This document shows, in pieces, positions 16,701-63,963 of a DNA stretch of 64,000 nt (position 1 is the stretch's first letter; every line of letters begins with the position of its first letter). The position numbers and the translations under genes are program-made. The notes under the pieces are model-generated. The model did no database searches, was not told the origin of the DNA, and saw only the letters and a program-made list of their open reading frames with translations. The stretch covers positions 262,616 to 326,615 of the forward strand of contig NW_002476358.1 in the NCBI RefSeq assembly GCF_000189635.1, given 5' to 3'. This DNA is from Tetrahymena thermophila SB210 (taxonomy: Eukaryota; Ciliophora; Oligohymenophorea; Hymenostomatida; Tetrahymenidae).

Positions 16701-17243
16701 TACTAAGTCACGAAAATAGTCATTTCATAGAAAAATCATCAAATATATACTGTAAAACATTAAATCATACGAGATAATTAATTTGTGATAAATAATGAAC
16801 AAAAAAAGATACTTTTTGATTAATCAAACTAATCTTATCAAGTCAATTAATCAATCAAATCAGACAATATAAACAACTACTATTGGATGATAATAAATGA
16901 TCAATATATTATAAACTAATTTGATAAAAGTATCTAACAATTTGTAACCTAACAAGCATTGTTGGTCTTGTTACAATTGGTTATTTAATTATTTCAGGAT
17001 AAAAATAGCTTTAATCTACTGGATTTAATACTGCTCTAATTAATCTCATACTTTTCTCTATATACTTTTCAATTTTGATGACACTTATAACTAACTATCA
17101 CTACGTACATGCATATATAGATTGTTATTTATAGCTATTAGATTGCTTCAAATACAGATTAGAAATTCAACACAAATAAATAACATAATTAAATTGAAAA
17201 TAAAAAGATATTTATTTATTCCAAAAAAAAATATATATTCAAA
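13701..17243. other. Long A/T-rich intergenic region
   Basis: About 3.5 kb upstream of glucokinase. Apart from the hairpin element at 14923-15071 (listed separately), I see no gene, tRNA or repeat. Confidence 0.5.
14923..15071. repeat. Long imperfect hairpin with GC-richer centre
   Basis: The left arm (about 14923-14950, containing tatagtaaaatgagaactct) and right arm (about 15044-15071, containing agagttctaattttactata) are near-perfect reverse complements over about 25 bp. Inside them a second, weaker A/T stem can form. The centre, around 14973-15014 (ttgaatccacagattcctaa, then a gggg run), is clearly richer in G/C than the flanks. It could be a MITE-like element or a structured non-coding RNA gene; it matches no U-snRNA, SRP, 5S, telomerase or tRNA signature that I know. 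Confidence 0.55.
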
Positions 17244-19121
17244 ATGTTAACTGCACTTTCAAAAATTTTAAATTAACATTAGTCTGAATACAAGCCATCC
17301 ACTAACAAGTTGAGCTAGACTGGTGAAATCATCTACAAAGCTCTTATTGGTGATATTGGTGGTACAAATATTCGTCTCAGACTTATTTCTTTTACTAAGC
17401 ATGCAAGAATCCCTACTGTTATTAAGTCAAGTGAAAATATGAAAACTAACCAATTTAACTCCTTCACTGATGCTATCGCTAAATTCCTTGAAGGTGTGGA
17501 AGAAATCGACTGGCCTGAGTTTGCAGGTATCGGTATGGCTGGTGCTGTTCTTGATAACTAAAATACTCTCACCAATGCTCCTCATTGGCCCAAAATTATT
17601 GGTAATTAATTTATTTTTGATCGAATGTTCTCAATATACAAAAAAGCTGAAATAGGTCACTCCATCCTTGTTAGTTGAAAATAACTCCCATTATTTTAGA
17701 CTATTAGCATCTCTTCCTCAAAATTTAATAAGTTTTTAATTAGGAGATCAATAAATACTATTCATTTCGCAATAAATTTAAACTGTAGAAAGTATTGAAG
17801 ATAGTATTGAAGTGGCTAAAAAATCAGTCAACAAAAACATAAAATTTATTACCACATTCTTAATTTATTGTGCTAAAATAATTATAATTTTATAATTAGG
17901 TAATGAACTTGCCTAGTAATTCAAAATTAAGAAGTTCTAACTCTTTAATGACTTCGAAGTAGCCAGTTATGCTTGTCTCAACTTAACCAAAGAAGAAGTC
18001 ATCCAAATTAATACTGCTTAGGAAATACCCAACAAAATTAAGACTGTTTGTGGTGCTGGTACTGGATTAGGTGTTGCTAATATCATCCCTTATCCTAAGT
18101 ATCCTGAAAGCTCTGAATATGTCTATTAAGTATGGCCTGGTGAAGGTGGTCATGGATCTTTTGCTCCTATTACCAAAACTTAATAGGAATTCGTTGACTT
18201 CTTATTGTAAACTATTTAAAAAATGATCTTTATATCTAATAAAATTGTTTTTTTTTATCATTTTAAAATAGGAAATACTTCCCTGAACGCACTTAAATTG
18301 CTTTAGAATATGCCTTCGTAGGTCCTGCTATTCCCTACATGTATGCTTTCTTCAAAAATAGGTACTTATTTAGATAAATTAATTAGCCAATAAACAAATA
18401 AAATAAAATTAATATCTTCTACTGATCAGTCAAATATTTTAGCAATAAAATTATGCACATAAAATTTATTCATAATCGAACTAAATTAAAATTTATTAAA
18501 TATAATAATATTTAGACATTAAGGTTCAGAATTAGCTTTAGAAAAGGCTGAAGGAGCTCACCACAGCTTTGATGTTGATGAATACCACAGAATGAAGAGA
18601 AGTAAAGATGAAAAGGAAAGAGAAAAGGCTAACTTCCCCAGTCACCTCATTTTTGAATATGGTGTTTAAGCAAAGGATGCAATTTGTGAAGAAGTTGTTA
18701 AATTCTTTGTTAGCATATATGAAACTGCTATTGGTGATATGGCTGTAAGAAATTTACCTTATTCAGGTATCTACTTAGTTGGCAGCATGAGTTTAGCTGT
18801 TCTTCCATACATTCAAAAGAACTAAGCTACCTTCATGAAGGAATACTATGACAACAGACCCTACTTAAAGGATGTCTTTGATAAGATTCCTATTTATATT
18901 GTAAAAGAAAAGGATATTGGTCTCGATGGTGCATACGTAATTAACATTTATTTAATTTTATTAATAATTAATTAATAATTAAAAAAGTATGTCAAATTTT
19001 AAAATTAAAAAAAAAAATTGCAATTTCAAATCTTATAAATTTAAATATCTTTAAATAATTTAAATAGGTTGTAACTAGATAAATGGTACAATCATATCTT
19101 TCATCGATTCCTGCCTAGTGA
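17244..19121 (+). CDS. GLK: Glucokinase (Glk family)
   Basis: Phosphorylates glucose to glucose 6-phosphate with ATP, in the cytosol, at the entry to glycolysis. The protein is 409 residues, somewhat longer than bacterial Glk (about 320). Visible motifs are the N-terminal phosphate-binding loop GDIGGTNIRL, FAGIGMAGAV, the segment TNAPHWP, the second phosphate loop CGAGTGLGVA, the GEGGH motif (WPGEGGHGSF) containing zinc/sugar-site-type residues, and YSGIYLVGSMSL near the C terminus. These mark the bacterial-type glucokinase family rather than the animal/yeast hexokinase type. Exons are 17244-17601, 17900-18206, 18272-18361, 18516-18936 and 19068-19121; all phases agree. TGA is at 19119-19121. 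The gene is notably less AT-rich than its flanks, as expected for a well-expressed gene. Confidence 0.95.
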
Positions 19122-21340
19122 GTGATGAATATACTTTAACTAAATTATACAATTTATTTAATGAAATTTGTTAATATTAACTAACAAACTATCTATCATT
19201 TAATAAAAGGTATAGAATTTATCAAAAAATATAATAAAAATATAAATAAATAAATATATAAATAACCTGCTTTTATTTGTTTTATTTTTCTGATTTATCA
19301 AATTAATTTTATTTCACTAATCATTTATTCAATCAATCAATAAATCAACATATTCACAATAATAGTTTATCAAATTTATGTATGTGTGTTTTATTCTTGC
19401 AATAAATAATATTAAATCATTTAAAAGCTGATAGTAAATGAATATTTTAATTAATAATTTCCTTTAAACCTAATTTTAATAAATATATTAATAATTAATA
19501 TAACCTATTAGTGATATAAAAATATATTTGTTAAATTTAATAAATAATACTTATATTAATATTTTTTAGACCTAGGTATTTTGAACTTAATTAATACACC
19601 AATCATTATCAAATAATCTTCTAAGCAATATTTAATAATTCATTAATATCATTTATTCTAAATACAAATAGTTTTTTATTAATTTTTTAGCTAAAATATA
19701 ATTTAATATTCATATATCTTGTTAAATAATAAATAATATTTTTTTCAAATTAGAATTTTCCTTTATTTTTAATATTACTGACACTGAAACTGTTCTTCTT
19801 CAAAAAATGATTTACTATAAATTTTATGATTTCCAATTAAAAATATTTAATAAGCTTTTTAACATTTTAAAAACATTTTCTTATTTATTTAATTTTTTAA
19901 GAAATTTATTGTGTTTAATGTAAAAATACTATGAAATTAATATAAAAATAGTTTTCATTTTTATGATCTTGGTTTGTTTTAAAACTTATTAATTAATGAT
20001 TAGCAATTTAAATGCTCGATATACTTGTTCGAGGATTATCTGATGTATAAATAAATATAAATAGTATTAAGAAATTTGATTATTTTTTTTATCTTTCAAG
20101 CAATAATAACTTCTGAGTTAACTTAATAATTTTAATAATTTTTTTATTTGTTTAAAAAATAATTAGATATAATGCATATTTAAATATTTCCCAATTATTG
20201 CTCTAATTTGTTTAATAACATTCTATTTAATAGGGCATTATTTAAAAGCTTTAATAGTACTGAATATATAATTATAAATTGAAAATATGAGTTTGACATG
20301 TTCATCGCATATTTTACATATCTATTTTCAATAGCTATAAGAAAAAGCTAAGTAGATTTTTACTAACTAGCTAATCATTTTTTATTATAGCGAATTAAAT
20401 TTAAATAAAAAGACTAAATTTGAGTCAACTTTAGAAGGTTTTATAAAAAAGTGACGTATTAATTTTTCTTTTAATTGACGAAAATTTCATCTAAACTAAA
20501 GTAGATCTCTTCAGTCCTATTTGCCTTTAAATAGAAAATGGTTTAGCGATTTTCTTATCTTTGTTAGATTTAAACTATATCTCACATCTAATTTCAAGTA
20601 AAAAATTGCGAATACCGAGAATTTATTTTAAATATTGCAATAATCTTAATTTTACTCTTGTATGGAGTTTTAAGCGAAAAACTAAAATGAATAAACTCTA
20701 CAAAAGTAAAAATGTCTTTAAAACTATTTGATATTTCTAAATAGCAACATATTTATAATTGATTTAATAATTTTTTTTCTTTTTAAAATATCTTAAAAAT
20801 AATTTTCTATGCCTAGTTTGATTTTTGTTGCTTTATGTTCATTTTTTTTAAGAAGTACCTGTAAAAAGGTAAATAATTAGAGATAGGAATTTTTTTGTGC
20901 TTTGGTGTGGTTGGGAAGAAATTGAATGGAAAGTATATCCTCTAATCTGGCAAAAAAAGAAGTATTTTAAGATATATCTATCATTGGTGAGGGAAATTTA
21001 TTAAATTTTATTTGTATCTTCAGCGATATAAAATAAATTGTTTTTATTGAAATTGTATGGTTTTTGCATGAGGTTTGAAGAATACACTCACTTAAATTAT
21101 TTATTGAATGAATTCTAAGGAAGTGTTTAATATAGAAGGGGAATAAAATTTCTGAAATAAACGTTTGTATTTCATTTGTTTTCTCCTGTAATATAGATGT
21201 GATTAAAATTAAGATTAAACACTAATTTACAATTTCTTTTAAATTATTTTTTCAGCAGCTTTGATTGATAACAATTGTTTTTTAGTAGTTCGTTAAATCA
21301 TTAAAGCACACTATTTTCACAAGTTTAAATATAATTTTTA
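19122..21340. other. A/T-rich intergenic region
   Basis: About 2.2 kb downstream of glucokinase. It holds only A/T-rich sequence in which I see no gene, RNA or repeat. Confidence 0.5.
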
Positions 21341-24178: not shown

Positions 24179-25433
24179 AAAATACATTACCGACATTTAA
24201 ATAGCTCCTTTACTAATTAATAATAGTTTTTAATAATAGCTTATTTATTATGAACGGATGAAGGTTTGTTTCAAAAAAATAATCTTATTTTTGCTCGACA
24301 AGTAGATTGATTGATTGAATGATCATTTAATTCAAATTGTATACTGTTGAGATATTGGATTTATAAATAAGATATTATCTAGAATTTTTCTTAAAATTTG
24401 ATTATAAATTTGAGTAGCTATAAGGATATTAAGCCTTTAATAAATATATTCAATGAAAGGAAATAGCTAGATTGGTTATATGTCAATTAGCCAAATTTGA
24501 TGTCAAAATCAAATAAAAATTTGGAATAGTAAAATAATATATTTCTGTGATTTATAATAAATTAATAATATTTACTTTCAAAGATTATAATTAATAAATT
24601 AAATTAGTAAGACTATCAATCTATCAATGAATCAATCCTAACTTTGCACTCCTATGCTAAGTTAAAAAAGAATCTTGACGGGGAAGAAAATAATAAATAA
24701 AAAAACAAAACAAATTTTAATTAAAAATAGAAAAAGAAGAAAAAAGATTCTCCTTTCCCAAACTAAAAAAATTATCCTATTTTTGGAAAGAGAAAGCAAA
24801 AAAAAGAAATTTAATTATCAATCGTTATCACCACCTCTTATAATCACATTTAATTAATAAAAAAAAGAAGAAGAAAAAGAAGAAAGTTAAAAGAAAAATA
24901 TAAAATTATCTAGAGATATTCCAAAAAATATTAAATTAAATAATTTCAGTACTGAGTCAAAAGAGAAATCAAAAAATAAAAACCATTCAAACCAAATCAA
25001 CTAATTTACTTCCTGCGATCAATATAAGCAATTTATTAGCCTCAGGAATATTTTATTCAAATTGAAGATCTCACTGTAATCTAAAAGAGCAAATCACATC
25101 GCAATCAACAAAATAAGCTTTCTCTTTACTTTTTGCTGATACCTTTAAAAAGTCTGTGTATAAAAAATTGAAATCGCGCAATAACTGTATCCAGCATTTT
25201 TAATTTCTACTTACCTAAAGCAATACAAATACTTAGAGCGCACCTAAGATAATTTAATTCAACCCCCTCCTTACAGTATTAGTTAAGTCATATAATTCTG
25301 ATAATAGATACACAGCTTAAAGAAGATTATTATAATTAAATTCAAAAGATAAAATTCTGAATTAAAAATAATTAAAAAAAAAAAAAAGAAGAGTAAGAAA
25401 TAAATACTATATTTATAAAACTTAATATTAATT
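24179..25433 (+). other. Upstream region of the sestrin gene with a long upstream ORF
   Basis: An ORF at 24654-25139 (161 codons, TGA at 25137-25139) is Lys/Gln/Asn-rich (MLSQKRILTGKKIINKKTKQ at its start; later LERESKKKKF and SPPLIITF). Such AG-rich sequence is also typical of long ciliate 5' leaders, so I read the region mainly as promoter and leader, with the ORF as a doubtful candidate gene. Confidence 0.3.
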
Positions 25434-27455
25434 ATGAGCTCTTCTCTTTTTAACGACAACTCCCCAATTCAACATGACTCTCGAAAAAGCTCAAATTTAA
25501 ATTTCGATGCAGCTCAACAAACAGCATCTACAAAACAGCGTTCTTCAATGGATGACTCAGTTAATATGTAATCCAGTGCTGGAATGAAAAAATCTTCCAC
25601 TCATATTCCATAATTCTGTTTTGAACCTAAAAGTGAATTGATTTTAGAAATCGAAAGTTACATGCCTCTTTACATTGATTGTCAAAGCATAGATGCTGAA
25701 TATTTATAATGGTGCTTTGAAAGCTTAAAGCAAAAGCAGCTTGAATGCAGTCTTAAAAATGATGTTGATACACTCAATTTTATTTAACAACGCCTCTAGG
25801 TACTTGTTTATCAAAGTCCTTTACCTTAAATATCTGAACTTTTTCGCCCTCTTCTACTAGAATAGAATTGCGAAGAGTAGCGCATCAGTAGATATTTCTT
25901 AAATGAGGATTTCCCCTCTATCATTTAACTACAACACATCATTTTTAGCAATGATCATTCTCAGCCAAATGCTGTTTCATAAAAAATTTCTGACATATTA
26001 AAACGCAATTCTGATTAATTGCTAAATTCAAAATAATAAGGAATAAACAACAATTCTTCAGAAAATTTAGATATTTCAACTGAGACTTCAACTGATCCTG
26101 TCAATTAACAGGATTCATTATCTGCTGTCATTAAAGAAGAATTGCACAAGCAAAAGGTTTATTCTACTGATAACGTCAATCTTGAAGATTTGTAAAAATT
26201 GCTTACTACTATTTACAATACCTTCAACGGTAGAATACCCAATATATTTCGTCCTTTCCTCTTCTTCCCAGAGTATTTGAAAACATTTTTCACTTCTTTT
26301 GAAGAGATATTTATTGAACCATCTGCTTGGCCATACGAATCTCTTTATCAAATTGCAATGATGACTGCAAGTGCTTACGAGTGCAGTTATGTTTTCTTGA
26401 TGTTTGGAGAATTGTATTAAATTTACTAAGGTAATCCTGCTTTCTTAGATGATGGATTTGAAGCTTTAGACCCTAAAGTCAAAAAGGCTTGGGATTTGAT
26501 TTACCTTTTAAAGGAAAATCACTCTGCATAGATTCTCAATTAATAATCTTATCACAACCTTTTCAATTATTTGCTTAATTAATCTCCTGCATGGAATTAA
26601 AATGAATTAATATTTGCCTTCCTTTCAATATCTTTTGCTTAGCAACTCGTTATATTGAGTCATGGAATGGGTTTGGTTGGAGATAATGACTCTCTCTATG
26701 GATCAGGAAAGAACTCTACAAAAAATAACAATTCATTCAACTAAATTAAGGTAAATGAAAAACTCACTAATGAAGTAATTGAAATTCTCAGCAATCTTAA
26801 GCCCTTAGAATTCCACAAGGAAGAAAGTGAAATGTCCGAAGAAACTGATGTCTCTGATTTTGAGTTTATCACTTCATAAATTAATTAAACTCGCTTTAAA
26901 AAATATGTAGGTTATTCTTCTATATTTTCAAATGATTCGCCATTAGCTTAACCTCTTTTTAATTCTATTTGCTCTCCTGACAAAGTTTAAAAATCAAAGC
27001 GTGGTAGAGACCAAAATAAGCTTGCTTCGAATGTTTGCGATTGGAAAACCCATACTTCTGAATTTATTGCCCACAGAAATATAAACCTTTCAAAAACTCT
27101 TAATGAAAAATATTCTCAAATCTAAGAATTAACATTAAGAAATTTTGGATCTACCTAAGAAATCGATACTCGCATTTTCCGTGAAGCTATTTGGAATTTC
27201 TGTGAAATCACAATGGGTTATACTAAAACTGATTACAATTACAGAAAAATGAATAATCTTCTCTAAAAACCATTCCGTAATTTCTTAAAGAAAATAATCT
27301 TCAAGCCTCACGAAATCAAATTAAGCGATTTCAATACTATTCCCTACCTCTTTGAAGTACATGATATGGTTCATGTAATATTCCTTGCCTCCGAAGCAAA
27401 ATTTTATACTCAAAACATCTTTCTCTTCCACAGTCTTTCTCAGTTCCTCTAATGA
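25434..27455 (+). CDS. Sestrin homologue
   Basis: A single-exon gene of 673 residues; ATG at 25434, TGA at 27453-27455. Sestrins are stress-induced alpha-helical proteins related to alkyl hydroperoxidases that restrain TORC1 through GATOR2 in animals. The diagnostic core is at about residues 300-400: WPYESLYQIAMMTASAYECS, GNPAFLDDGFEALDPKVKKA, ILNQQSYHNLF and AWNQNELIFAFLSISFAQQL. The C-terminal part has REAIWNFCEITMGYTKTDYN and DFNTIPYLFEVHDMVH. The redox-type cysteine (C317, in ECSYVF) and the Tyr two residues on (Y319) are present, but the position of the catalytic His in human SESN2 is Phe (F324). Ser/Asn-rich insertions explain the extra length over animal sestrins (about 480-550). It stands alone between long A/T spacers. 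Confidence 0.85.
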
Positions 27456-36795: not shown

Positions 36796-38694
36796 TCATT
36801 GTTTTTATTCGTCTTCTACATTTATAGAGTGTTTAATTATTCCTAATTTTTTAATTCTTTCAAGATATTCGTCTTCATCATATCCAACCTTTTCATCGTC
36901 ATCTTCTTCATTTTATTCATTAATAGTTGAATTTTTATGCTAAAATTTTTCGAAATCTACACTTGTTTTTTAAATTTTAGATTTGCCAACTTCTCCTTTA
37001 AGATTTAAAACGCTTTAACGAATTAAATTTTGGCATTTTGTATATCCATCAGGTCTCATCATTTCGTATTTATCTTCTTTAAATAATTCTTTAGAAATGA
37101 CAATTTCATCAAAATTATCATAGTAATCACGTATTAAAAATGGTTTTATATACTTAGCATTGAATCTTTAAACTTTATATTTCCATTTTGATTTGAATAA
37201 TTTCTCATCATACTCACCATGAAGTAAGGCATCAGTTATTTTCTTTTTTCTTATAGTTTCATCTTCTTGTTCTTATTACTCATGATGTTCATTTGAGTGC
37301 CCTTCTTAACCATTAATGTGTTATTCTTCTTCATTTTTATGATGTTATTCATGGCCATGACCATGACCATGACCGTGGCTTACTGGTGGTAAAGTAAGAT
37401 CTATTACCTTTGGATTAACTAATCCAAAGAAAAGAGTTGTTATAATTAAGACTCCTAACATAGTGCTATTCAGAACTTCAGAGTATTCTTCAGATTCAAC
37501 TTAGTCCATTAAAATAAATCCTAAAATACCTCTGCTTATTCCTGTCATTTAAAGGATTATCTATTCTCTCAAGCCCATTGCAAAGGTTCCTTTTTTGAAG
37601 AATAGTCTCAAAATAGAGCTCATTATAAATACAGAAATAAATCTTCCAATAAATAAAATCAGGATGACCCATCCAATTAAAGTAAAACTCCAAGCGTTTC
37701 TGTAGTAAGAAAAAGTGGTGAATCCAAGGTAAGTAAATAACATATTTTCAGCACCACTTGATAAGGTTTAAAATGTAACATTTGAGCATATCTTGGCTTT
37801 TTCAGAAAGATTATAAAAGGCATAATGTCCTATTATAATACCAGAGAATAATAAAGCTATAACTCCAGAATAATGAAAGGCTTCTACAATGCAATAAGCT
37901 GAGTAGGCACTGAGAAACAATATCAGTAGTTCATGGACAACAGTTTTATTTAAAAATTTAAAGTGTTTTAAAATAAGTGTACAACCAATTCCAAAAACGA
38001 TTCCAGCTAAAACACTAATGGATATACTTTTGAACATGATAAAGAGAATTTTAGGCACAATGCTCCATTCTAAATCCTTAACGTCTTCATCTACTAAAGT
38101 CTCAAAACTATCAAAAAGTACAAGAGAAGTTGCGTCATTTATTATACCTTCTCCAAAAATAACATGGAAAAGAATAGGGTATGAGTGATGGTCAACCATT
38201 GTAGAGGCTAAGAAACTATCTTTAGAACTTAATGCTGCACTAAATAAGGATAGATCTTTAATTCCTAATTCAACTGAAGTTACTTCATACTCTCCATCTT
38301 CACTATTTTTGCTTTAAACTTATATTTTAATCATATCATTATTACAAATAGTATTGACCAACAAAAGCATAGTCACAAAAGTTATTATTGTTCCTAGTAA
38401 CCCATAAGTAAGAATGTAAGACATATTTTTGAAAAAATGCCTCTTTTTCATCATAAACCCTTCGCTAAAAATAATAGCAGGCAAAAAAACGTAAATGAAA
38501 ACAGATTTAGAAAGAGAAGATTAATAGTTGAAACCAAAGTAAGCAACTGCAGACACTACCATACCAAGAACAATCGCAACTCCTGTCTCATGAAAGTACC
38601 TAATCTTTTTTGAAGAAAAGTAGCTACCTATAATCGATTGTATGACTAAAATCATAACTAGGTAAAATGTTCCTACTCCAAAATAGTCACTCAT
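36796..38694 (-). CDS. Na+/H+ exchanger (CPA1/NHE family)
   Basis: A single-exon gene of 632 residues. It exchanges protons for Na+ (or K+) across a membrane; which membrane cannot be told. About ten to twelve hydrophobic helices fill residues 1-430. The NHE signature FGEGIINDATSLVLFDSF lies at residues 180-197, with the transport-site Asn-Asp pair at N186-D187 and Glu at 182; it corresponds to FGESLLNDAVTVVLY of animal NHEs. YSGVIALLFSGIIIGHYAF and a late helix with MTGISRGILGFILMDQ also fit the family. The cytosolic tail begins with a His-Gly run (SHGHGHGHGHEQHH, near residues 438-451), then His/Glu-rich and acidic stretches. Start ATG is at 38692-38694; TGA at 36796-36798. It is convergent with the gene ending at 36184. 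Confidence 0.92.
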
Positions 38695-41139
38695 TTTACA
38701 ATATAAATTGTATGAATCTTTATTTTTTTTAATTACAAATTAATTATTTTTAATTTGTGAATTAGAAATTTTTTTTTTAAAATCCTATTTTTTATGCCAA
38801 AAATATCTTTTTTGAATGTCAAACTTACTATTTAATTTATTTATGAATGTAAGAAATCTTTGATTGGATCATATAGGTCTACTATTGTAAATTATCTATT
38901 ACTTTTGTATGTGGGAAAAAAGTTGTTATTACAACCACAAAACTGAATTTTTTCTGTTTTTAATTAAATAATGTAAATAAACAATATGAATAAATCCATA
39001 AATTACTCAGCCTCGTCATATCAAATTTCACACACCACACTACTTCATTAAGTAATCTTCTTATCAGAAAATTTATTTTTCCTATTCTAATAAAAATTTA
39101 AGTTAATATGTCTTGAATAAAGTAAACAAAATACACCTAAAATATAAGATAACCTTCTCTCAAGCAAAAAATATTTATATTAACATTAACATTTTAATTT
39201 CAAAAACATGGTTGAACATTTATTGTATTCTTATTTTCTAATATCTTTCTTTCATTTAAATCTATAATTAATTTAAATATCAACTTATTTTTACAGAGCG
39301 TATTAATATTTTTTTGGTTTATTTCTTTTACTAATTTTTAATTTTGATGTAATTAATTATTTTTTGATATAAGAAAAAAGCACTTTAAAATCAGAAATTT
39401 GTAACTAAGACATTAAATTGATCAGATTCATAAATCTATCATATTTTTTATTTTCTAAAACAAATAAAAATAATAAAGTACCTAATAGATTGTTATTTAT
39501 TTATTACTACAATTTTAATTTAATTCTATTATTTTGCAAAAATTATGTAAATAAAATAATAAACTTCATAAACTTTTGATAAGAATTTTTTAGATTTGAC
39601 AAGAAAAAACTAAGTAGATTAAAAAACTCCTCATTTATTAATAAAAGTATTATTCTCTCACTTTATTGTAAAATTAATCTAATTATATAATTTATATTTA
39701 GCAAATAAATGTAAATTAAAGAAAATGTAATAAAGAATATTTTTCAATTTTTATTATTTATTCTCCATTTAATTTTTGATAATTTATTTATTTTCAGAAA
39801 TCACTAAGAGTAAATAATGTATTGAAACTAGCAGCAAATAATTAAGGAGATTAAATAATTAATAAAAGGATTATTCTCACATTTTAATGTAAAATTAAGC
39901 TAATTTTTTAAATTGGTTTAATAAATAAGTTAAAAATAACATATAGCGTATAAAACAATATTTTTTGATTCTTATTATGATTTATAAAATTCTTACACTG
40001 TATCACCTTACTGTAATAAAACTAGCTATTTTTCGAACAGGTATTATCCACTATTTAAACAAATTTGATTTTTTTAAAATAAATAAAATATTTTTTTAAA
40101 ATTAATATTTATGGAACTAGAATATTTTAAATTCTAAATTTTATTGCCTTTTTTATAAATACTCAAGCTGATTTAGGATAAAAGTATAAAAAACTTAACG
40201 AAAGTGTACAGTATTAATTTGGAAAGATATATTTTATTTCTGATTGTTTAGATTGATTAGATGGACTTTTCTTTATCCATTCCATATCAAAAAGTGATAT
40301 CTTTTGAGTCTTATTTAAAAATAAATTTGTTCTTTTTAATACAATAAATCAATAAATCTAAATATGCTTTTAAAATAATATATTTATATTCAAAATTAAA
40401 CATTTAATAATTATAGAAGAATTTATTTGTATTTACTATATTTATCAACAATTTTTATATTCTTATACTTTTAAAATTCTATCAGATTGATTAGATTGGT
40501 TAGATGGGCTGATCTTAATCCATTCCATCTAAAAATAACTAAGTGATATTTTTTGAGTCTTTTTAAAAAATAAATTTGTCCTTTTTAATATAATAAATCA
40601 ATAAATCTAAATATACTTTTAAAATAGTATATTTTTATTCGAAATTAAATATTTAATAAATTTAGATGAATTTATTTTTATTTACTATTTTTATCAACAT
40701 TTTTATCTTCTTATATTTTTAAATTCAAGATATTACTCTCACTAGTATATCAATAATTAACAATGATTATTTAAAGATACAAAATTAAAAATTAGAAATT
40801 TTTTATGTAATGATATTTTATTTCTAAAATAATATTTTTGAAAAATGTTAATACAAATTAATTTATTTATTTCTTTTTAATATTTTTAAACTATAAAATT
40901 TATGAAATAAATTTTGCAATAATTAATTACTTTTTAATTCAGAAAAGATTAAAAATTTTATAACTAACTCTAAAACTTTTGAACAATTTTAACAAAATTT
41001 ATTTTTTTAAAATAACTCTTAAAGTGATATACTTATTTAATTAATAGCAAATAATATATGCTTATTCATAAAATAGTTTATTTAAACATAATACAGTAAT
41101 TTTTTAATTTTCAAATAATATTTATAGATGCTTGTTAAT
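38695..41139. other. A/T-rich intergenic region with a tandem repeat
   Basis: About 2.4 kb between the exchanger promoter and the 3' end of the Rpn9 gene. It carries the two-copy repeat at 40242-40735; otherwise I see no gene or RNA. Confidence 0.5.
40242..40735. repeat. Two-copy tandem repeat, unit about 243 bp
   Basis: Copies at about 40242-40484 and 40485-40735 share gattgattag...tagatgg, ccattccat, gtgatat...ttttgagtct, aataaatcaataaatctaaa and tatttactat...tttatcaaca in the same order. Many single-base differences mean the duplication is not very recent. There is no coding capacity. Confidence 0.8.
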
Positions 41140-48291: not shown

Positions 48292-49755
48292 TCAAAAGCG
48301 TTCTGCAATATTTTTTAAATTTATAAGTCTTATTTGGAGATAATGTTGGATTTCTTCATGCGACTTTAAATTATATTTATCCTAGTTATACTTTAAATAT
48401 TAATTAAATTCATGAAGGGTTATTAGTTTTTTTAATCTGTTTATATTTTTTCTACTTATAAGCTAAATGGATTATTCATACAACTCTATTGCTTTTGCAT
48501 TCTATTTAAGATGTGAGTAGGAATGAGCAAGCAAAATTTAACATTATAGCATATATTAATTAGATTTTTCTTAGTTTATATTGAGATTTTCTATTGCTTT
48601 TTCATATTCATTACAATAGTAATGAGCTCTTCCTAACATATAATAGTATTGAGGTTCTTATTAATTTGAAATGTTTATAGCAGACTAAAACAATTGTAAA
48701 GCTCTTTCTTTGCAACCTATTTATAAATATTCGTTTGCAATTAAGCAAAGGACATTATGGTCTGAAGGATTTCTTTCATAATACACTTAAAGAGTGTTTA
48801 AAGCTTCTTCATGTCTACCTAGGTATGAAAGTACTTTAGCCTGAGTAATTAAAATTTTTTGATCTTTATTATAAACTTTTTAAGCTAGGTAAGTTTTATC
48901 TAAAGCTTCTTTGGCCATATCTAAACTCAAAAGTAGCTCTGACCATTGAATATAAACTTAGGCTAACTCTTCATCATTACCTTCATTTATTTCAATTAAG
49001 TTATTCATTTATCTTTGCATACTTTCGTTATCTTGCATCTAGACAAATATTCTTGAAATCTCTATAAAGGCTTTTATTTCAACAGGATTGAGTTCAATGA
49101 TTGAATAAAGGATATTCAGCGCTGATTAATGCTATTCTAAATCAGAATAGATACCTATCATAGAATAAAGAACATCATAGTCTTAATCATCAATTTATTA
49201 GCATTACTCATAATAAGTTAGGGCTATCTCTAAGCAATCATCTTCCTCATATGCTATACCCAAATTATAAAGACCCACAAATTTCTATTCTACTATCCTA
49301 TCAGATAGCTCTTGATTTTTCTCAATCATCTGAAGTCCGTATTAAAGAGCTTTTATAGCTTCATTATATTATTTCATTTCTATTAAAAGACTACCTTTTT
49401 CGAGTATTAATTAGTGTGATTTTGGATATACAGAGAGACCTATATCCAAATAGCGCATAGCTAGTCTGTACTTCTTCTATAATTTGTAATTTTAAGCAAT
49501 ATATTCAAAATTAAGTTCAGAATAATTATTGTACTTAATTCCTCTTCTCAAAATATTATTTTGTTCAATAGGGCATTATACTAATTAACCCTTAACCCTC
49601 TCTAAAATATAATCATTTCTTTTTTCACCTACAGTAAGCTTCTACAAAACTTTGAAAAATTTATGACTTTTTTAATTTTAATTTGAATCTTTGAGTCCAT
49701 AAGCTTATTCGCTTGTAAAATCTATGTAGTCTTAAGCTACGTTAAACATAGACAT
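48292..49755 (-). CDS. Tetratricopeptide-repeat (TPR) protein
   Basis: A single-exon gene of 487 residues. Starting around residue 80, successive 34-residue helical repeats with TPR-type residues can be read: YRLAMRYLDIGLSVYPKS, YNEAIKALQYGLQMIE, LYNLGIAYEEDDCLEIALTY, SALNILYSIIELNPVEIKA, HEEALNTLQVYYERNPSDH, ERALQLFQSAINIS and YYMLGRAHYYCNEYEKAIEN. TPRs form a scaffold for protein-protein binding; nothing in the sequence tells the partner, and no other domain is evident. The C terminus (LKSHEEIQHYLQIRLINL) is also helical. ATG is at 49753-49755 and TGA at 48292-48294. It is divergent from the TRIM-like gene at 50625, with which it shares an 870-bp intergenic region. Confidence 0.87.
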
Positions 49756-50624
49756 ATTTTCACAATATTCACTAATTTATTATTGAATTAATAATTTAAA
49801 TAATTTGGCGCTAGATAGATAGTGTTTCAAATGAAAAAGATATATTTGATTTTAATTAGCAACTTTTTCTTTCTTAAGCAAACTTAATCGTTTAAACAGA
49901 TCTATCAATCTGTTCATATATCAATTAATCAATATATAGATATATCTATCTACTGATAACTACTCTAATTTTCAAAATGTTAAAAAATATTATTTGTAAT
50001 TGGCATATTTAGAGTAATCATATGCAGTTAATACATTTATTTTTATTAAATCAAATGCATAACTCAATTATAAATACAAAAGATAAATAAAAAAGGAGTA
50101 TTTATATTACTTAAAACAATATTTTATATCTTAATTTTTCCTAAATAAAATTTTTTGGAATTTAGAATAAGGAGAAACTTATTTATTTTAGTATGATTTC
50201 TTATAGATTAAATATGAATATTTTTTTAATTAGATAATGAATAAAATGATATATAACATAAGATTATAATTTAATTTTTTAAACTCTTGTTTACATTTTT
50301 AAGATAATCTTAAATAGAAAAGTTTAAGTTTTATTATTATATTTGGTGTATTAAGTAAAATATGAGAATTTTTATTTTGTTAAGCATAATATATTATTTT
50401 TGAACCATGTATTATTATCATACTAATATAATTCTTATTAAAGTTATTAGTAAAATTCAAAAACAAATACTGTATCAAAGTTATGATAATGAATTTTATT
50501 AGCTTATTTTTGATAAAAGAAACTTTATTAAATTGCATTAAAATCTTTCTATATCAATTTTATCTAATAATTTAATTATTTGCGTAATTAATAACCAATA
50601 AATATTAGTTTAAAGTATAATATA
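49756..50624. other. Shared upstream region of two divergent genes
   Basis: 870 bp of A/T-rich sequence that must carry the promoters of the TPR gene (-) and the TRIM-like gene (+). Short tatagatatatctatcta-type dyad sequence occurs near 49935-49955; I can assign no regulatory site. Confidence 0.5.
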
Positions 50625-52130
50625 ATGATTGAATTTTTAGAACAAAGTGATAAGTTCATATGTTAGATTCACAGAGACTAAATTCCTTTATTCATTCAAG
50701 TAGATGAGGATGGATCTTGCTCTTTTCAATGCCAAGTATGCGTAGCCAAAAATTCTTTTAAGTCAAGAAGGTTAGTTTCTATAGGTTAAATTTTTGAAAA
50801 ATCTAAAAAGGCAGTAATACACAACTGGCCACCTTTGGATGATAGCTCTATTTATGAAAAAATAGAAGAGCTTTTCAATCAATAATAAGAATTAAGTGAA
50901 ATTGAAGAAATTAATAAATACTTCAAATAGGTAAAGAATAAAATTATTTCAAAGTTAGACGAAATTGAGGGAATCGTCATTAAAAAAGTCAATGAGTATT
51001 CTCATATTAATTTAGCTAATGTATATAATACCATGAACTAAAAAGAATAAATATAATAGCATATGATGAATCTTGATACATTTTAGTAGCAAATGAAATA
51101 AATAATACAAAAAGCATTTTAAGATAAAAATTCAAATACACAAAAGTTGATAAATACGATTGCTCAATTTGATGACAGATATAAGTTCGATAAAAATGTT
51201 TTAGATAAATTCTTAACTCTCTAACTAGAAATTTTAGGAGAAATAGAATAAATTATAGCATAAAAGTCATCATAAGAAGACAATTAAAAATTATTGAATG
51301 AAATGGAAAAGAAATAGGTTCTTATGTTGGAAAATTTAGGATCAACCATATTAAAAGATGAAAACGAAGTAGTAAATAGGTTTTCAACAAAAACACTAAT
51401 TGCAATTGAAGATGAGATAAAAAAAAATCTAGAAACTTTTTCAAGAAGCTCAAATAGTTTATCTGATAATAAATAACTTCCAGATTTTGATAAATATACT
51501 TCTTCTTATTCTTCATCTTCATTAACATTTAAGGCTTTAAACAAAAATAACTCAAAATCTAATTTATAACAGAGAATTACATAAAGCATCTAACAAAAGG
51601 CATTTAAACTTTCTAAAGCTATTCAACAAAATGGATTTTCATTCAAAAATATAGATCCAAAGGAATCATATTATATTGGCTTCATTGAAACTTATATTGA
51701 TCCTATCAAAAACGAACAATTCACAGTCAATATAAAAAATTTATAGAATTGGATTGGTATTGGTCTAGTAGAAAAGGAAAAAATAAATAAAGATATTCCT
51801 GTTTAGTAAAATAGTGGTTCTTCAGAAGCAGAAACAATAAATGGTTATTATATGCTTTCTCATAATGGATATTTTTGGCAACAAAAGTAGTAAAAGAGTT
51901 AAGATAAGCATGGTTAATTTATATTTAAGTCTGGGGATGTTGTTACAGTTACAATTAAAGGAAATCTAATGGTATTCGAAAAATAAAACTACAGGCATAA
52001 ATTCGAAATATAAATTTCGTTATCAGAAAACTCCTTGTTCTATCCTGGATTCATTTTATACTCTTAAGGAGATGAAATTGAATTTGTCAAACAGGAAAAA
52101 AATGTTTACTTTGAATAGATAAATGACTGA
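50625..52130 (+). CDS. TRIM-like protein: zinc-site-like motif, coiled coil, SPRY domain
   Basis: A single-exon gene of 501 residues. The N terminus has C13xxH16 and C36xxC39 (plus C32), the same Cx2H...Cx2C spacing as in the protein at 7266-9989. A long helical region (residues about 80-290) follows, with a Ser-rich linker, and then a C-terminal SPRY-type beta-sandwich from about residue 340: ESYYIGFIETYIDPIKN, NWIGIGLVEKEKI, NGYYMLSHNGYFW, FKSGDVVTVTI and LFYPGFILYSQGDEIEFV. The pattern Tyr/Met-Leu-Ser-x-Asn-Gly followed by a Gly-Asp-Val-Val strand is typical of SPRY. There is no RING, so ubiquitin ligase activity cannot be claimed; binding of a protein partner through SPRY is likely. TGA is at 52128-52130. 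Confidence 0.85.
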
Positions 52131-56777: not shown

Positions 56778-59700
56778 ATGTCAGAGGAAGATACGAGGTA
56801 TCCTCATGAAAGCGCATTGAATAAAGTAGGCAATTTTAATTTACATAAATATATCATGCAAATATTCATTTTCATAATTAGAAGAAGTTTTTTAAAGCTT
56901 AAAAGAAATTATTTAAGTATAAAAGTTGACATTTTTAAATTTTTATCAAGGGAAAGCATAAAATGGATGGTCTGCTTCGTGGGCTGGATCTAAATAATGT
57001 AGTTATAGAAAAACGCTCTAGAAATAATTCAGAATCATCGCATTCCGTATCAGGTAGAACATTTTAACAATAATTTAAACTTGTTCATTTTTAATCGTGC
57101 ATTTTTCTTAGCAAAATAAAGATAAAATAAGAAAAGGAAAATTTAAATTTTTTAAGTTTATTTTTTTATTGCATCTTTTTTAAAAAACTGATATATATTC
57201 ATAATAAAAAGGGGAAGCTGCATCTAAAAAAAAATCAAACACCACTTTATCTGACACAAGCAAAATAACTAAGCACAGGAAAAGTAGCAATGAAATTTAT
57301 TTGGCAAAAGTAATCGAGGAATAGGAAGATTCATAAGAGGATAATCGTAAAGCAAATCAATAAAAAGATTTAAAAGAGGTTAAAGTAAAAAATTCTACAG
57401 AAGATTTAAATTCTTAGAGGAGAAAATTGAGATCTTCAGGAATAGAAAAGTAAGATGAAATATCAAATATTAAAAGTAAAAAGCATCAGAAAATTAATGC
57501 TAAAGTTACATAGCATACTGAAAAAATTATGAACTAAAAAGTCTAGTAGGAGTAGAGTACATTTAATTTGAATAACTCGAACGAAGAAGGATTATCTTCA
57601 ACTTCTTGCTCTTCAGATTTATTAAAAAAGACCAGTAAAATACTTGAAAATTTAATTCAAAATACCTATATTTTAAATAAAATCAACCTATTTCTACTCT
57701 AAACCCTTAATTAATTAAGAATTTATAAATAAATAACACTTAGAATAATATTTATGCTTTCTTAAATTAAATTAAGATTTTGTCAAACAAAATTTTATAA
57801 TTTTATATCTTATCAAAATTTCCGAATTCTGCCATCAATAAATATAATTTATGCTAAATAAAAAGGAAATAAATCAAATTATGAGGTTGAAGTACTCAGT
57901 TCTCATAAAAATCCTATTCATGTTTTAGGAAGTACTTTGAAAATTGAAAAGCAGGTAGAAAAAAAAAGGAAAACTTCTGATTCTTAAAAAGTAGAGCCAT
58001 CTGCTGAGTAATCTAAAGTAGTATCTAAAGAAAAATAAAAATCCTCTCAAAATAAAAAAGAAGAAGCTTAATTTCAGAGTCAAAAGTAAATGTTAGATAA
58101 AGGCAATGTATTTGGCTAAGAAAATTTTAGAAAATCAACACGCTCAAATTCACTGAGTAGTGAATCTATTAGAAAACATAGTTCTGAAGATAATACAAAT
58201 TCTTTGAAAAAGTAAGCACATAAAAAAAAGGATTTGTCGTCTACTCCTTTAAAAAGTTAAAGTTAGAGAGATCTAAGAGCTTCAAAGAGAGAGATATTTA
58301 AAAATTAAGAATTGCAAGAACTTCAATAATTAGAAAAGATTTCATCAGAATAAAAATAAATTAAACAAACCGATTAATTAAAAACTTTAAAAAAGTAAGA
58401 TAACAACAAAGAAAATTTAGCTAGCAAAATAGAAAATTAGAAATATAATTCCAATGAGCATACAATAAAAAAATAGGTTACATTCAAAGAAAAATTAAGT
58501 GAGATAATAGGGGAAGAAGCAGAGTCTGCACCAGTTAAAGGAAGCTTTAACAACGCCTACGACTATAATGTTCATTAGGATTCTGATTCGGAAAAAGATT
58601 ACTTTCCTTCTAAAAAAGCATTAAAAAATCATAAGAAGGAGAAAAGAATTAAAAAAAGGTAAGAAAATAAATTAGAAATAGCAATTAAAAAAACTTAAAA
58701 ACTCCTCAAAACTAAGAGTATGTAAATGAGGCAATAAAGAACTATAATTAGTGTGGAAATTCCTTCTGAGTCATCTTTCGAAGATGATGAAGATGAAGAG
58801 ACTGCTGGGTAGAATCATAAAACAAACCATTTAAAAAATTAAAAAGTTGCATTTTTCTCAAAAAAATTAAATGATTTAGATAAAACAAATAGCTATAAAT
58901 CAAAAAGAGAAAAAGTTATTTAAGAGAATTGTTCTAGTTTGTAAATATAAGGTAAAGATAATAAATAATATACCTTAATTTTATTTTTTTAATTTATTTC
59001 AATCTAATTAATAGAAGGAAAAAAAAGTCAATAAATTTTAGAAATCTCAGACAATAGAAATGGAAAAAATAAGTCTAATGATGTTATGCTTACATCTTTA
59101 TAGCAGAAAAATATAAAATCTTTATCTTTAGAAGCTTCTGGCTAAAGTAATTACATTATTTTCTTCAAAGCATTGGTTACTAATTATTTTTTAATTTTTA
59201 ATTGTATAAAAAGAAAATTTAAATAGCAATCTATAAATAAATTCTTAAGGTGTAGAGAATGAAGCTTAAACACAAAATGGCAAAATAATTCAAAAAAATT
59301 AAAATGCATATGGCAAGAATAAAAATAGCGAAAGCAAGTCTGGCAATAATAGTTTAGAAATTTAATCCTAAAAAAAAAATTTATAGATATAATAAATTCA
59401 TTCTACTAATTAGTAAGTAAAAGCTGAGATTGAATTTAAAGATAAATAAATTAAGAAAAAACAATCTTTTACAACAAATCTTTAAAACTAAATGAATTTA
59501 AAAGATAAGCAATTTTAAAACACAAATAATTTTAACTCAGAAATAGGAATTACCCAAAGAGAAAATAACTCAGACCAAAACGAAACCGACTTAAATCTAG
59601 AATAAAAAAATCTTAAGCGCTTAAACAATTTTAATACACCATTAGAAGGTTACCCAACGAATATATGCTCCTCCTCTTCTCTACTTATTATTGAGGAGGA

Positions 59701-62700
59701 TAAGTTAGTAAAAGATGTAAATAACGATCCACATACTTTGAGCCAAGATTAGGCTAACTAATTTACCAATTAATAAGAATCATCTAAAACATAACTTATC
59801 CCTAAATGCGCTCATTAAGATGGCCAATAAAAACTATAAAATGAAGAAAATTTTTAACAATAAGAAGAAGACTATCAAGATAATTTTGCTAGTAATTCCT
59901 AATAAATAAGAAGTGCTGAACAAGATATTACAGGCTAAGTAGAAGTAAATTAAACCTAATAAAAGAACATTTTCAGTTAATAAAGACAAATTTAGAATGA
60001 AAATCGTAAAAGAGATGTAAGTAGCCCCTTCTTCTATGATCCTAAAATAGAATTTATAAACACCAACATTTTCTTTAAAAACTTTTATACAGAGTTTCAA
60101 CCATAAAATAGAAAAACCTTCTATTAAAAAGTAGCATATTAACACCACTTATAAACTTACTCACTAACTTAGTAACATACTCCCAGTTAGTAAACCCAAT
60201 CTATTGTTTAATAAAGTTAGAAACCTGAAAGCAATAATCAAATCTAAGTTGTTTCTTAACAAAATGAATAATAAAAAGAAGAGTAATTGTTATAAGCAGA
60301 AATATAGGATGAGGAAAAATTACTCAAAGAGTAATTAAGTATTGAATAAAATTACTAAAATCATAGTAACTAATTGATTAGTATTGGCTAGAATGATAAT
60401 TTTATAGAAAAAAATATTTGTTAGGAAAATTCATAAGATTTAAATCAAACTAATAGCAAAGTCCAAAAAGACATTACTAGCAATGAAATGCAAATTGAAA
60501 AGTAAGCATTAAGCTAATAAGCTTAATCAAACTTATAAAATGCCTAAGATGAGTAGAATTAAGAGCTAAAAAAGAAACATATTGGAATTTTAGCGGATAA
60601 AAATAAGGAATCAGGCGAAAATATGGTTTAATTGCAATCTGAGCTAGACCTATTATATGAAAAGTATTACCCAAGCTAAACTTATATAAATTGTGATTTG
60701 AAGTACTTTAACCTAGAATTGATAATTTAAAATACGGGATTATTTGATAGTAAAAAATTAATTAATTATTTATTTATTTATTCAATTATTAAAGAAAGAA
60801 ATTAATTATTTCAGAGAATAAAAATTAGAGGGAGAGAGAAGAAAGGAATAATTAAATTTTATTTTATTTATGAATTTTCACAATCTGCTTAATTTATTTT
60901 TTACCCTTTTTTAAATTTTCTATTTAGAAGCTAAATTTTCATAAATTTAAAAAGTCTTAAAAAATTTTATAAAAAATAAAACGTATTTATTTTATTAATT
61001 ATAAAATTGTTTTAAAATAGTTGTTTACATGGATCCTCCTTGGAGAATAAAAGGTGGTTAGCAATTTGATAGTTAGTTCATGTTTTCTAATAGTAAATTT
61101 TCTTTGGATTATGATACAATGTCTAATAAAGAAATTATGGACATTCCAGTTGAGAGGTTATCAAACAAAGGTTAGTTTTTATAATATCTATTCTTTTTCT
61201 TTAGGATTATTTCCTAGATTTTTGATTATGTATGAATTGGTTTACTTACTATATTCTTATTATTTTAGGTTTCTTATTTTTATGGATTTTGAACACATAA
61301 ATGAATACTGCTATATAGATGATGCAAAAATGGGGATACAACTTGGTTGATAAAATCGTGTGGGTTAAAATGAAAGATAAAAATGTTTATCTATCCCATG
61401 GATATTATTTTATGCATTCTTTTGAACTTTGTCTTATTGGATATAAGAATGATACCAAAGATGACCTTACTAGCATATATCCAGCATCAAACCCTTTTTC
61501 AGTTATAGATGAAAATATTTTAGAAGAAAACAAGTCGAAAGGAGGCAACAAGAAAAGTGAAATAAACTTGGAATACCCTCATTTTTTTAACAAAATTTCT
61601 AACAATGTCATCTTTGCCGAAGTTAGAAAGAAATCGCAGAAGCCTGATGAAATTTATGAAATTATAGATCTATTAATACCCGGAGCTAAAAAAATTGAAT
61701 TATTTGCTCGTAATAATAATTTGCGTCCAGGCTGGGTAAGGTAAAATGAAATAATTAGAAGAATAAAAATTAAAATAAGTTATTTTTTACCCACTAAGAA
61801 TAGAAATCATAAATATTTAAATTTTAACAAGTTATAATTTGAGCAAAATAAATAAAATCTATCTATATTAAATAAAACATTCTGTCTTGAGAGACAATTT
61901 TTCTTAAAAATATTAAAATAATCATCTTTTTTTTATTTTAAGCATTGTTTTATGAAAATCTACTTACTTAAATATTATTTTCAAACTAAATTAGTGTTGG
62001 CAACTAACTAGGTGAAACTTACGAAAAATGGATGCATTAAGTAAATTGTGATAACTGTCACTAGGAAATTGTAAAGGGAAAGCTAAAAAGATATAAGTCT
62101 CGTAGGATAAATAATTATGATATATGCGAAAATTGTGTGTTGAATTTTGATAAGAAAGATTTTTATGAAATACAAAACAAAGTAAATGAGGATATTTTGC
62201 ATAATTATCAAAGTTGTAATCGTTGTGAAGCTGAACCAATATGGGGAATCAGATTCCATTGTATGATTTGCAAAGATTTTGATTTATGTGAAGGTAAAAT
62301 AATTTAAAAGTTACCCTTATTTTAATTTTTAAAAATCAGTATCCTCATCAATTTTTTTAAATTAAAAAGCTTGTGTAGATGAAAATACGAAGTTATGTGA
62401 AGAAGAGTAGTTCCATAACTTGCAACATGACATGAAAATTATCGAAGTGCCAGTATTTGCAGATGGATTTCCTGTTCATGATAGAAAGTAAAAAGATCTA
62501 AAAATTTTAATTGATTATGTTAACTTTAAATTTTTTATTTTAATATTTATTATCTAATTTAGATGTTAATCTTGCTTTATGAGCCCGATCATAGGCACTT
62601 GTTTTACATGCAAGTAATGCTAAGGGAACTTTAATCTTTGTAAATATTTTATAATTTTAGCTTTATACTTAATGATTTTTGCTATTATTTTAAAGGTTAG

Positions 62701-63963
62701 AACTGTTATTTTAGCAAGCCAATAGAGACCATTAAAAACAAAAGACATAGACCAGAACATTAAATGGATGCACTTATAAGTCCAGTCAAAAATACTAAAA
62801 CTAAAAAGATTTAGTTTAAATGTGCAGGATGTGGAGTTTTAAATTTAAAAGATATGTACAAGTGTGAAAACTGTTATGGTTTTTATTTCTGTCTATCATG
62901 TTATGAGACTAAATGCGATGATTTTAAAACTTACATGGCGAGTTCCCATAAAAATTACCATTCACTTATTAGATATAATCTTGAAGAAATTGAGAGTTAG
63001 AACGAATAGAAAGTTGAACTGCAAGATGCTTAGGCTTAGTAGATCAACAACGGTAATAAATGCTTATGAAATAATTTAAAAATAATATTTTTTTTATTTA
63101 GATCCTATAAATAGTCAACTTATACTTAATGTTATATCTCAAATCTTAGACACAGATGAAGTCAATAAACCATAAAATATTGATAATTATGCTGAAGAAG
63201 GGAGATAAGACTAATTAAAAGAATTGAATTAGAAATAAATTGATGAAGATGAAGATAATATCCTAAAAAATAAAACAGAAATATAAGAAGAGTCTAGAAA
63301 TATTAATTAAGACACTAAAAATAAAAAAAATGGCTAAACTAAAAGACCCTATAATAGAAAGTAAAAAGTTAAATCAATAGAAGACAAAGATGAGACCAAT
63401 TTGGATAAATAAAATAATAATTAAGTTGAATTATAAAATGATAAATAAAATGAGTAATTAAATATTGAATAAGATTAATCAGGAAATTAAAATATGAATC
63501 AGCTAAAGGAAGATCAAGATGAGTTGGAAAAGGCTGAAGAATAAAATTTAAAAAGCAATTTAGTGAAAAAAATAAGAAAAAAAAGGGTGAGTAAGAAATA
63601 AAAATAATAACTAGAAGATTAAAGTGAGGAAAAAAAAGAAGAAAATAATGACTAATTAATTGATAAGAAGTCCGACTCAATTAACAATGAAAACAAAAGT
63701 GTAGACGAGTCTAAATAAAATTAGATGGAAGAGGAAGAAGATTAAAAAGAGGAAAGCAATAAAAATGAAGATGATAAAGAGGAGAATGAAATACAAGAAG
63801 AAAATAAAGTTGTTAAGAAAAGGAAAAGAAGAACTAAAGAAGAGATAGAAAAATTCAAACAAGAAAAAGAATAAAAAAATTTGGAGTACTTGATCGGTCT
63901 ACAAGATGGTAAAGAAAAGAAAAAAAGAGGAAGACTTCCTAAATTAAAAGATAATTCCAAACT
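56778..63963 (+). CDS. Large MT-A70 adenine-N6 methyltransferase with four ZZ-like zinc fingers, 3' end outside the window
   Basis: Transfers a methyl group from S-adenosylmethionine to N6 of adenine in DNA or RNA; ciliate MT-A70 proteins are known to make DNA 6mA. Thirteen exons join in phase: 56778-56825, 56951-57053, 57212-57634, 57866-58951, 59015-59146, 59214-60749, 61021-61170, 61269-61740, 61995-62293, 62370-62487, 62563-62639, 62696-63052 and 63102 to about 63963 (GTAAGT donor; gene continues), giving about 1,887 residues. Residues 1 to about 1080 are disordered, Lys/Ser/Gln/Asn-rich. The catalytic domain (about 1085-1325) has DPPW at 1114-1117, FLFLWILNTQMN, WGYNLVDKIVWVK, KPDEIYEIIDLLIPGAKKIE and RPGWVSVGNQLGE, closely like METTL3's KPDEIY and PNWITLGNQL. 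Four Cys-rich ZZ-like fingers follow (first Cys at 1335, 1391, 1457, 1524), then a charged tail with KKRGRLPK. Confidence 0.9.
60750..61020 (+). other. Intron joining the disordered region to the catalytic domain
   Basis: A 271-bp A/T-rich intron, GTAAAA...TTTTAAAATAG. Splicing joins NTGLFD to IVYMDPPW in phase; GLFD-I-V-x-x-DPPW is the expected MT-A70 continuity. This is the evidence that the long N-terminal region and the methyltransferase are one gene. Confidence 0.8.
61995..63052 (+). other. Exons encoding the four ZZ-like zinc fingers
   Basis: Finger 1 has Cys 1335, 1338, 1361, 1364. Finger 2 (CNRCEAEPIWGIRFHCMICK, then DFDLCEAC) has Cys 1391, 1394, 1406, 1409, 1415, 1418 and is the most canonical ZZ. 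Finger 3 has Cys 1457, 1460, 1469, 1472, 1482, 1485. Finger 4 has Cys 1524, 1527, 1538, 1541, 1547, 1550 and His 1566, 1570. ZZ fingers bind zinc and often recognise histone H3 tails or other protein N termini. Confidence 0.8.

Follow-up and report, generated by a model that had tools for sequence, protein, structure and literature searches.

The window analysed here, a 64,000-nucleotide stretch of Tetrahymena thermophila SB210 (RefSeq assembly GCF_000189635.1, contig NW_002476358.1, positions 262,616 to 326,615), carries at 56778-63963 on the + strand a gene whose predicted product joins a long low-complexity region, an MT-A70 methyltransferase domain, an array of ZZ zinc fingers and a charged tail. 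We assign this product to the ciliate AMT2/5 family of MT-A70 DNA N6-adenine methyltransferases, most likely as Tetrahymena AMT2 (TAMT-1) itself or a close orthologue, with a probability of about 0.88.

Gene model, catalytic domain and family

The model comprises 13 exons and, with TAA and TAG read as glutamine, gives 1,887 residues and 0 stops; the phase-consistent gene model that an earlier note had read from the letters of this DNA is confirmed. Splice sites were picked by eye for phase, GT-AG ends and composition, and all 12 introns (49-271 bases) are therefore GT-AG by construction; their G+C content is 10-19% vs. 24-40% for the exons. The ciliate code (code 6) yields long open frames in the window, whose G+C content is about 14-29%. 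In this sequence-only model alternative splice sites are possible, above all at the small exons 1, 2, 5 and 11, and the frame after exon 13 stays open, with no stop, up to the window end.

The MT-A70 domain was placed at amino acids (aa) 1088-1325 (60683..62019, +) by Pfam, PDB sequence matches and junction alignments, and is encoded in four pieces lying in exon 6 (60683-60749), exon 7 (61021-61170), exon 8 (61269-61740) and exon 9 (61995-62019). A Pfam scan of residues 1068-1887 returned MT-A70 with an expectation value (E) of 1.4e-33 and ZZ with 2.1e-16 in three stretches, which confirms the catalytic domain that had been described as METTL3-type with an intact DPPW. The DPPW lies at aa 1114, and E1212, K1284 of the KPDEIY motif and GNQL at 1319 were also located. 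In the PDB comparison, which covered PDB chains only and the best 60 of 77 sequences, the catalytic domain matched Tetrahymena MTA1/AMT1 (8.7e-40), METTL3 (5.3e-30), METTL14 (6e-13) and MTA9 (1.5e-5). Among the matches listed, the closest chains were those of MTA1 (7f4r, 7f4l and 7yi8), labelled MT-a70 family protein; the MTA1-complex papers are the source of entries 7f4l-7f4t and 7yi8/7yi9.

The METTL3-like motifs KPDEIY, IELFAR and GNQL are indeed present, yet METTL3 is not the nearest match among the PDB chains. That the protein is a METTL3 family member acting in RNA methylation is, in our estimate, extremely improbable. Besides the motifs and the METTL3 match itself, such a membership could draw on a short junction piece for which METTL3 (E 0.09) scored slightly better than MTA1 (0.56). 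The MT-A70 fold and an upstream CD(I/L)(R/K)Y motif are shared with METTL3. Over the whole domain, however, a DNA enzyme, MTA1/AMT1, matches about ten orders better, Pfam detected no further domain in 1,072 of the 1,087 N-terminal residues, and METTL3 is an RNA methyltransferase without C-terminal ZZ fingers. According to a 2025 survey, eukaryotic MT-A70 proteins fall into six families that occur in most supergroups, and C-terminal ZZ domains "of unknown function" are exceptional to AMT2/5 (PMC12695648). METTL3 membership was rejected, since among the PDB chains compared METTL3 is not the closest MT-A70 match over the domain.

AMT1/MTA1 provides the closest solved catalytic domain and shares DPPW, SQKP(D/E)EIY and GN(Q/E)L with the product. 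Its chains gave no match to the ZZ part, and it is described as operating with MTA9, p1 and p2. Compared with MTA1, the segment from E1212 to K1284 is also extended by an insertion, the spacing being 72 vs. 34 (MTA1 E130, K164). An AMT1/MTA1-type subunit without ZZ fingers was set aside, as the ZZ array is present here.

The combination of an MT-A70 domain with intact DPPW and C-terminal ZZ fingers (PF00569) is the hallmark of AMT2/5, and the MT-A70 and ZZ Pfam models that we used are those given as underlying the family architectures of the survey (PMC12695648). Two T. thermophila genes are reported to combine MTA70 and ZZ, TTHERM_00388490 (TAMT-1) and TTHERM_00136470 (PMC6245762); they correspond to AMT2 and AMT5, which are placed in a subclade of their own with several C-terminal ZZ fingers (PMC8265677). 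By published description, the product shares with AMT2 the MT-A70 domain and several C-terminal ZZ fingers, and with AMT5 the architecture common to that subclade. The fusion of MT-A70 and ZZ fingers is thus an already described architecture and not a new kind of protein; the novelty implied earlier is not supported. Scans of contig collections with a 384-residue MT-A70/ZZ piece gave 9 pattern matches and 0 confirmed in prokaryotic contigs, and 0 in viral contigs, as expected because the collections were prokaryotic and viral.

Between the two paralogues, the E1212-K1284 spacing of 72 favours AMT2, since it matches the 72 between E111 and K183 reported for TAMT-1, if those are the aligned residues; we infer that they are. 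AMT5 or an orthologue from a related species would also be compatible. Several points weigh against the assignment. AMT2 and AMT5 were compared by published description, and the paralogue is not proven. The E111/K183 match would imply a numbering that starts about 12 residues before DPPW, either that of a construct or that of a shorter model of the gene. The best PDB matches are MTA1 chains, with no AMT2/5 chain recognised in the best 60 of 77. Finally, somatic knock-out of AMT5 (TTHERM_00136470) is reported to give no significant change in N6-methyladenine (6mA) (PMC6245762), so that the role of the gene would be less clear if it is AMT5.

Knock-out of TTHERM_00388490 (AMT2) is reported to lower 6mA by 37.8%, and a TAMT-1 construct of the MT-A70 and ZZ parts methylated DNA in vitro, with tenfold higher activity when the probe was single-stranded (PMC6245762); no other part is therefore needed for catalysis there. 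AMT2 has been named the 6mA hemimethylase of Tetrahymena (PMC11441545), AMT2 and AMT5 were proposed to act in asymmetric 6mA (PMC8265677), and one sentence of a review states that de novo 6mA in the new macronucleus depends on both. On the AMT2/5 assignment, the enzyme would newly (hemi-)methylate ApT sites in the chromatin of the macronucleus, and AMT1 would then complete and maintain the marks so begun. The earlier proposal of an adenine methyltransferase guided by its own reader modules thus stands for the enzyme, which matches AMT2/5; chromatin reading is only possible.

Disordered region and its junction with the enzyme

The low-complexity N-terminal region spans exons 1-6 up to aa 1087 (56778..60682, +), with introns at 56826-56950, 57054-57211, 57635-57865, 58952-59014 and 59147-59213, and was delimited from the model, TGA counts, FoldIndex and Pfam. 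Of residues 1-1087, Q and K each account for 13%, S for 11% and N for 10%, with E also abundant, and FoldIndex was negative at 98% of the positions. A Pfam search listing up to E 10, with HMMER filters that remove most matches above E ~0.1, gave no match in the 1,072 residues scanned. The huge low-complexity region noted before the enzyme is therefore real, at about 1,087 residues; its suggested role in condensation is without evidence. Within the disordered region lies an aromatic-rich island (about 60023-60097, +, aa 868-892, from SPFFYDPKIEF to YTEF), a candidate binding motif.

In exon 6 (1,536 bases) the model frame contains no TGA, whereas the two remaining frames contain 5 and 20. Under a second-order Markov null the mean was 8.2, and 1 of 1,000 simulated sequences was TGA-free. 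For the whole spliced N-terminal part the count was again 0, against a null mean of 16.8 and 0 of 1,000 simulations free of TGA, a test that is biased because the exons had been selected to be open.

The junction with the enzyme was examined by alignment. With a 509-residue MT-A70/ZZ query against PDB, the best METTL14 stretch (whole-sequence E 6e-13 and weaker) begins in exon 6 at aa 1080 and crosses the exon 6/7 junction, which falls in aa 1110. A 106-residue junction query also aligned with METTL3 from aa 1080, with a whole-sequence E of 8e-5 and no single stretch below 0.01. In a 55-residue junction query, EKYYPSQTYINCDLKYFNLELIIQNTGLFDIVYMDPPWRI was aligned with METTL3 as far as its DPPWDI (E 0.09, weak alone), and INCDLKYF of exon 6 paired with METTL3 ICCDIRYL just upstream of DPPW. 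On these alignments the catalytic domain very probably begins in exon 6.

The same data bear on whether two adjacent genes were wrongly merged, a low-complexity protein that ends at about 60750 and an independent MT-A70/ZZ enzyme from about 61000 onwards. A split of this kind would fit the 271-base intron of 14% G+C between exon 6 and DPPW, the weakness of the junction piece when taken singly, and the TAMT-1 numbering E111/K183, which would put DPPW near residue 13 if it comes from a full gene model; the exon 6/7 join, moreover, was modelled from sequence. Against it, the last ~30 residues of exon 6 align with METTL14 as one stretch through the junction, the METTL3 likeness directly upstream of DPPW places a part of the catalytic domain in exon 6, and the model frame of this exon is TGA-free. 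We reject the two-gene arrangement as very unlikely. The low-complexity stretch upstream in exon 6 is very probably in frame with the catalytic domain, which argues against a split at 60750 and supports the fusion of disordered part and enzyme described earlier; the gene may begin within exon 6 or in one of the exons before it.

The ZZ array and the charged tail

Four ZZ-like units follow the catalytic domain. ZZ1 (aa 1335-1364, 62047..62136, +) has only two CxxC pairs, starting at 1335 and 1361, and lacks the middle CxxC and the HxxxH, so that one zinc site is missing. ZZ2 (aa 1391-1436, 62215..62428, +; exon 9 to 62293, exon 10 from 62370) is complete, with CxxC at 1391, 1406 and 1415 and HxxxH at 1432. 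ZZ3 (aa 1457-1503, 62564..62760, +; exon 11 to 62639, exon 12 from 62696) carries CxxC at 1457, 1472 and 1482, an extra CxxC at 1469 that overlaps the one at 1472, and HxxxH at 1499. ZZ4 (aa 1524-1570, 62821..62961, +) carries CxxC at 1524, 1538 and 1547 and HxxxH at 1566. By sequence, all eight zinc-ligand positions (three CxxC and HxxxH) are found in ZZ2, ZZ3 and ZZ4 only; the four tandem units described earlier are thus recovered, but the full ligand set is not in ZZ1.

Scored singly against the Pfam ZZ model, the units gave 3.6e-6 (ZZ1), 4.2e-10 (ZZ2), 6.7e-4 (ZZ3) and 0.43 (ZZ4); ZZ3, with 19.9 bits, lies under the gathering score of 21.4, and ZZ4 is also below it. In PDB, ZZ1 matched dystrobrevin (9.7e-4) and HERC2 (0.01), and ZZ2 matched BIG (1.6e-7), P35G2.11c (5.7e-7), which we take to be S. 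pombe Nbr1, HERC2 (4.5e-6), ZZZ3 (5e-4) and p300 (7.6e-4). A joint ZZ3-ZZ4 query paired ZZ3 with PRT1 (5.2e-7) and ZZ4 with BIG (0.025). Two pieces of 99 and 118 aa, each encoded within an exon (exon 9 breaks off within ZZ2), gave single-sequence fold models of low confidence, with a mean predicted local distance difference test (pLDDT) of 42.0 and 51.6. None of HERC2, p300, ZZZ3, PRT1, BIG and p62, whose ZZ domains share the zinc-ligand pattern, is known to be fused to a methyltransferase.

The earlier note also suggested that the fingers read histone H3. One Asp before the third CxxC (D848 of ZZZ3) is reported to be invariant in H3-binding ZZ domains, together with an Asp after the first Cys (D824), or Asn in p300/CBP (PMC6138639); the HERC2 ZZ uses D2709, D2728 and D2730 (PMC9001736). 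By motif reading, this acidic cage is kept as D and D in ZZ1 and as N and D in ZZ2, as in p300/CBP, and its positions are replaced by Q and N in ZZ3 and by A and F in ZZ4, unlike in the ZZ domains named above. H3 reading by ZZ1 and ZZ2 is therefore possible, and by ZZ3 and ZZ4 it is unlikely because the cage residues are absent. The cage pattern is not sufficient for H3 binding, since added acidic residues are reported not to have made TADA2 ZZ domains H3 binders (PMC6138639), and the ZZ1 pocket may not form because of its missing zinc site.

Within the AMT2/5 assignment, and not exclusive of it, the array could serve as a docking site for a partner protein, or for an N-terminus other than that of a histone, in place of reading H3, a possibility to which we give somewhat less than even odds. 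The yeast Nbr1 ZZ binds cargo enzymes, and those of p62, HERC2 and PRT1 bind N-terminal degrons; BIG, P35G2.11c and PRT1 (listed in degron-fusion complexes) are among the best single-finger matches, and the cage residues are missing from ZZ3 and ZZ4. On the other hand, ZZ2 also matched the H3-binding domains of HERC2, ZZZ3 and p300, a 6mA enzyme in the nucleus will encounter histone tails, and the ZZ1/ZZ2 cage is compatible with either ligand. For the AMT2/5 enzyme, the array may help to dock it on chromatin or a protein partner; in principle ZZ1 and ZZ2 could accommodate a free protein N-terminus, H3 Ala1 for example, and ZZ3 and ZZ4 may serve as scaffold. A fuller version, which we hold to be rather doubtful, is a split by function in which the degenerate one-zinc ZZ1 and the p300-like ZZ2 would hold free H3 N-termini, ZZ3 and ZZ4, their pocket lost, would fix the array to the catalytic domain or to a partner, and reading of the H3 tail would steer a de novo methyltransferase to nucleosome linkers.

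The charged tail described after the fingers is present in exon 13 at aa 1601-1887 (63102..63963, +), which ends at a possible splice donor with no stop before the window end. It contains acidic stretches, and basic residues cluster in four patches near aa 1686, 1756, 1839 and 1873. The last of these positions is that of KKKRGRLPK (63917-63943, +), which resembles an AT-hook; the AT-hook core is RGRP. The tail and the disordered N-terminus may be linkers or nuclear-targeting and DNA-contact segments.

Neighbouring genes and the role of the family

Of the 112 stop-to-stop frames of at least 180 aa in the window, 20 were run against Pfam, and 5 of these gave matches. Glucokinase (PF02685) was matched in two overlapping frames at 17082-19122 (+), which are therefore probably one intron-split gene. 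A Sestrin (PA26, PF04636, 4.4e-40) lies at 25302-27452 (+), and a sodium/hydrogen exchanger (PF00999, 2.2e-36) with a His-rich stretch beyond the Pfam-matched part at 36799-38868 (-). In PDB (E up to 1e-5), a TPR protein at 48295-49920 (-) matched nothing but TPR proteins of engineered or consensus sequence. Pfam gave no match in two long frames, 7068-9986 (+) and 50514-52127 (+), that look alike by eye, each with a Cys/His-containing start and a long coiled middle; BLASTP between them gave nothing better than E 0.52, so that their paralogy is not supported.

As a feature of the genome, the gene is an expected representative of a family that is already described. Adenine methylation in ciliate macronuclei is reported to be initiated by AMT2/5 enzymes, the literature passages on them do not state how sites are chosen, and the ZZ fingers are an obvious candidate for targeting. 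The split into cage-bearing and cage-less fingers is a modest, testable addition of the present analysis, which we do not claim to be unpublished; two fingers of each kind offer a direct mutational test. If true, reading of the H3 tail would give the ZZ domains of AMT2/5 a role.

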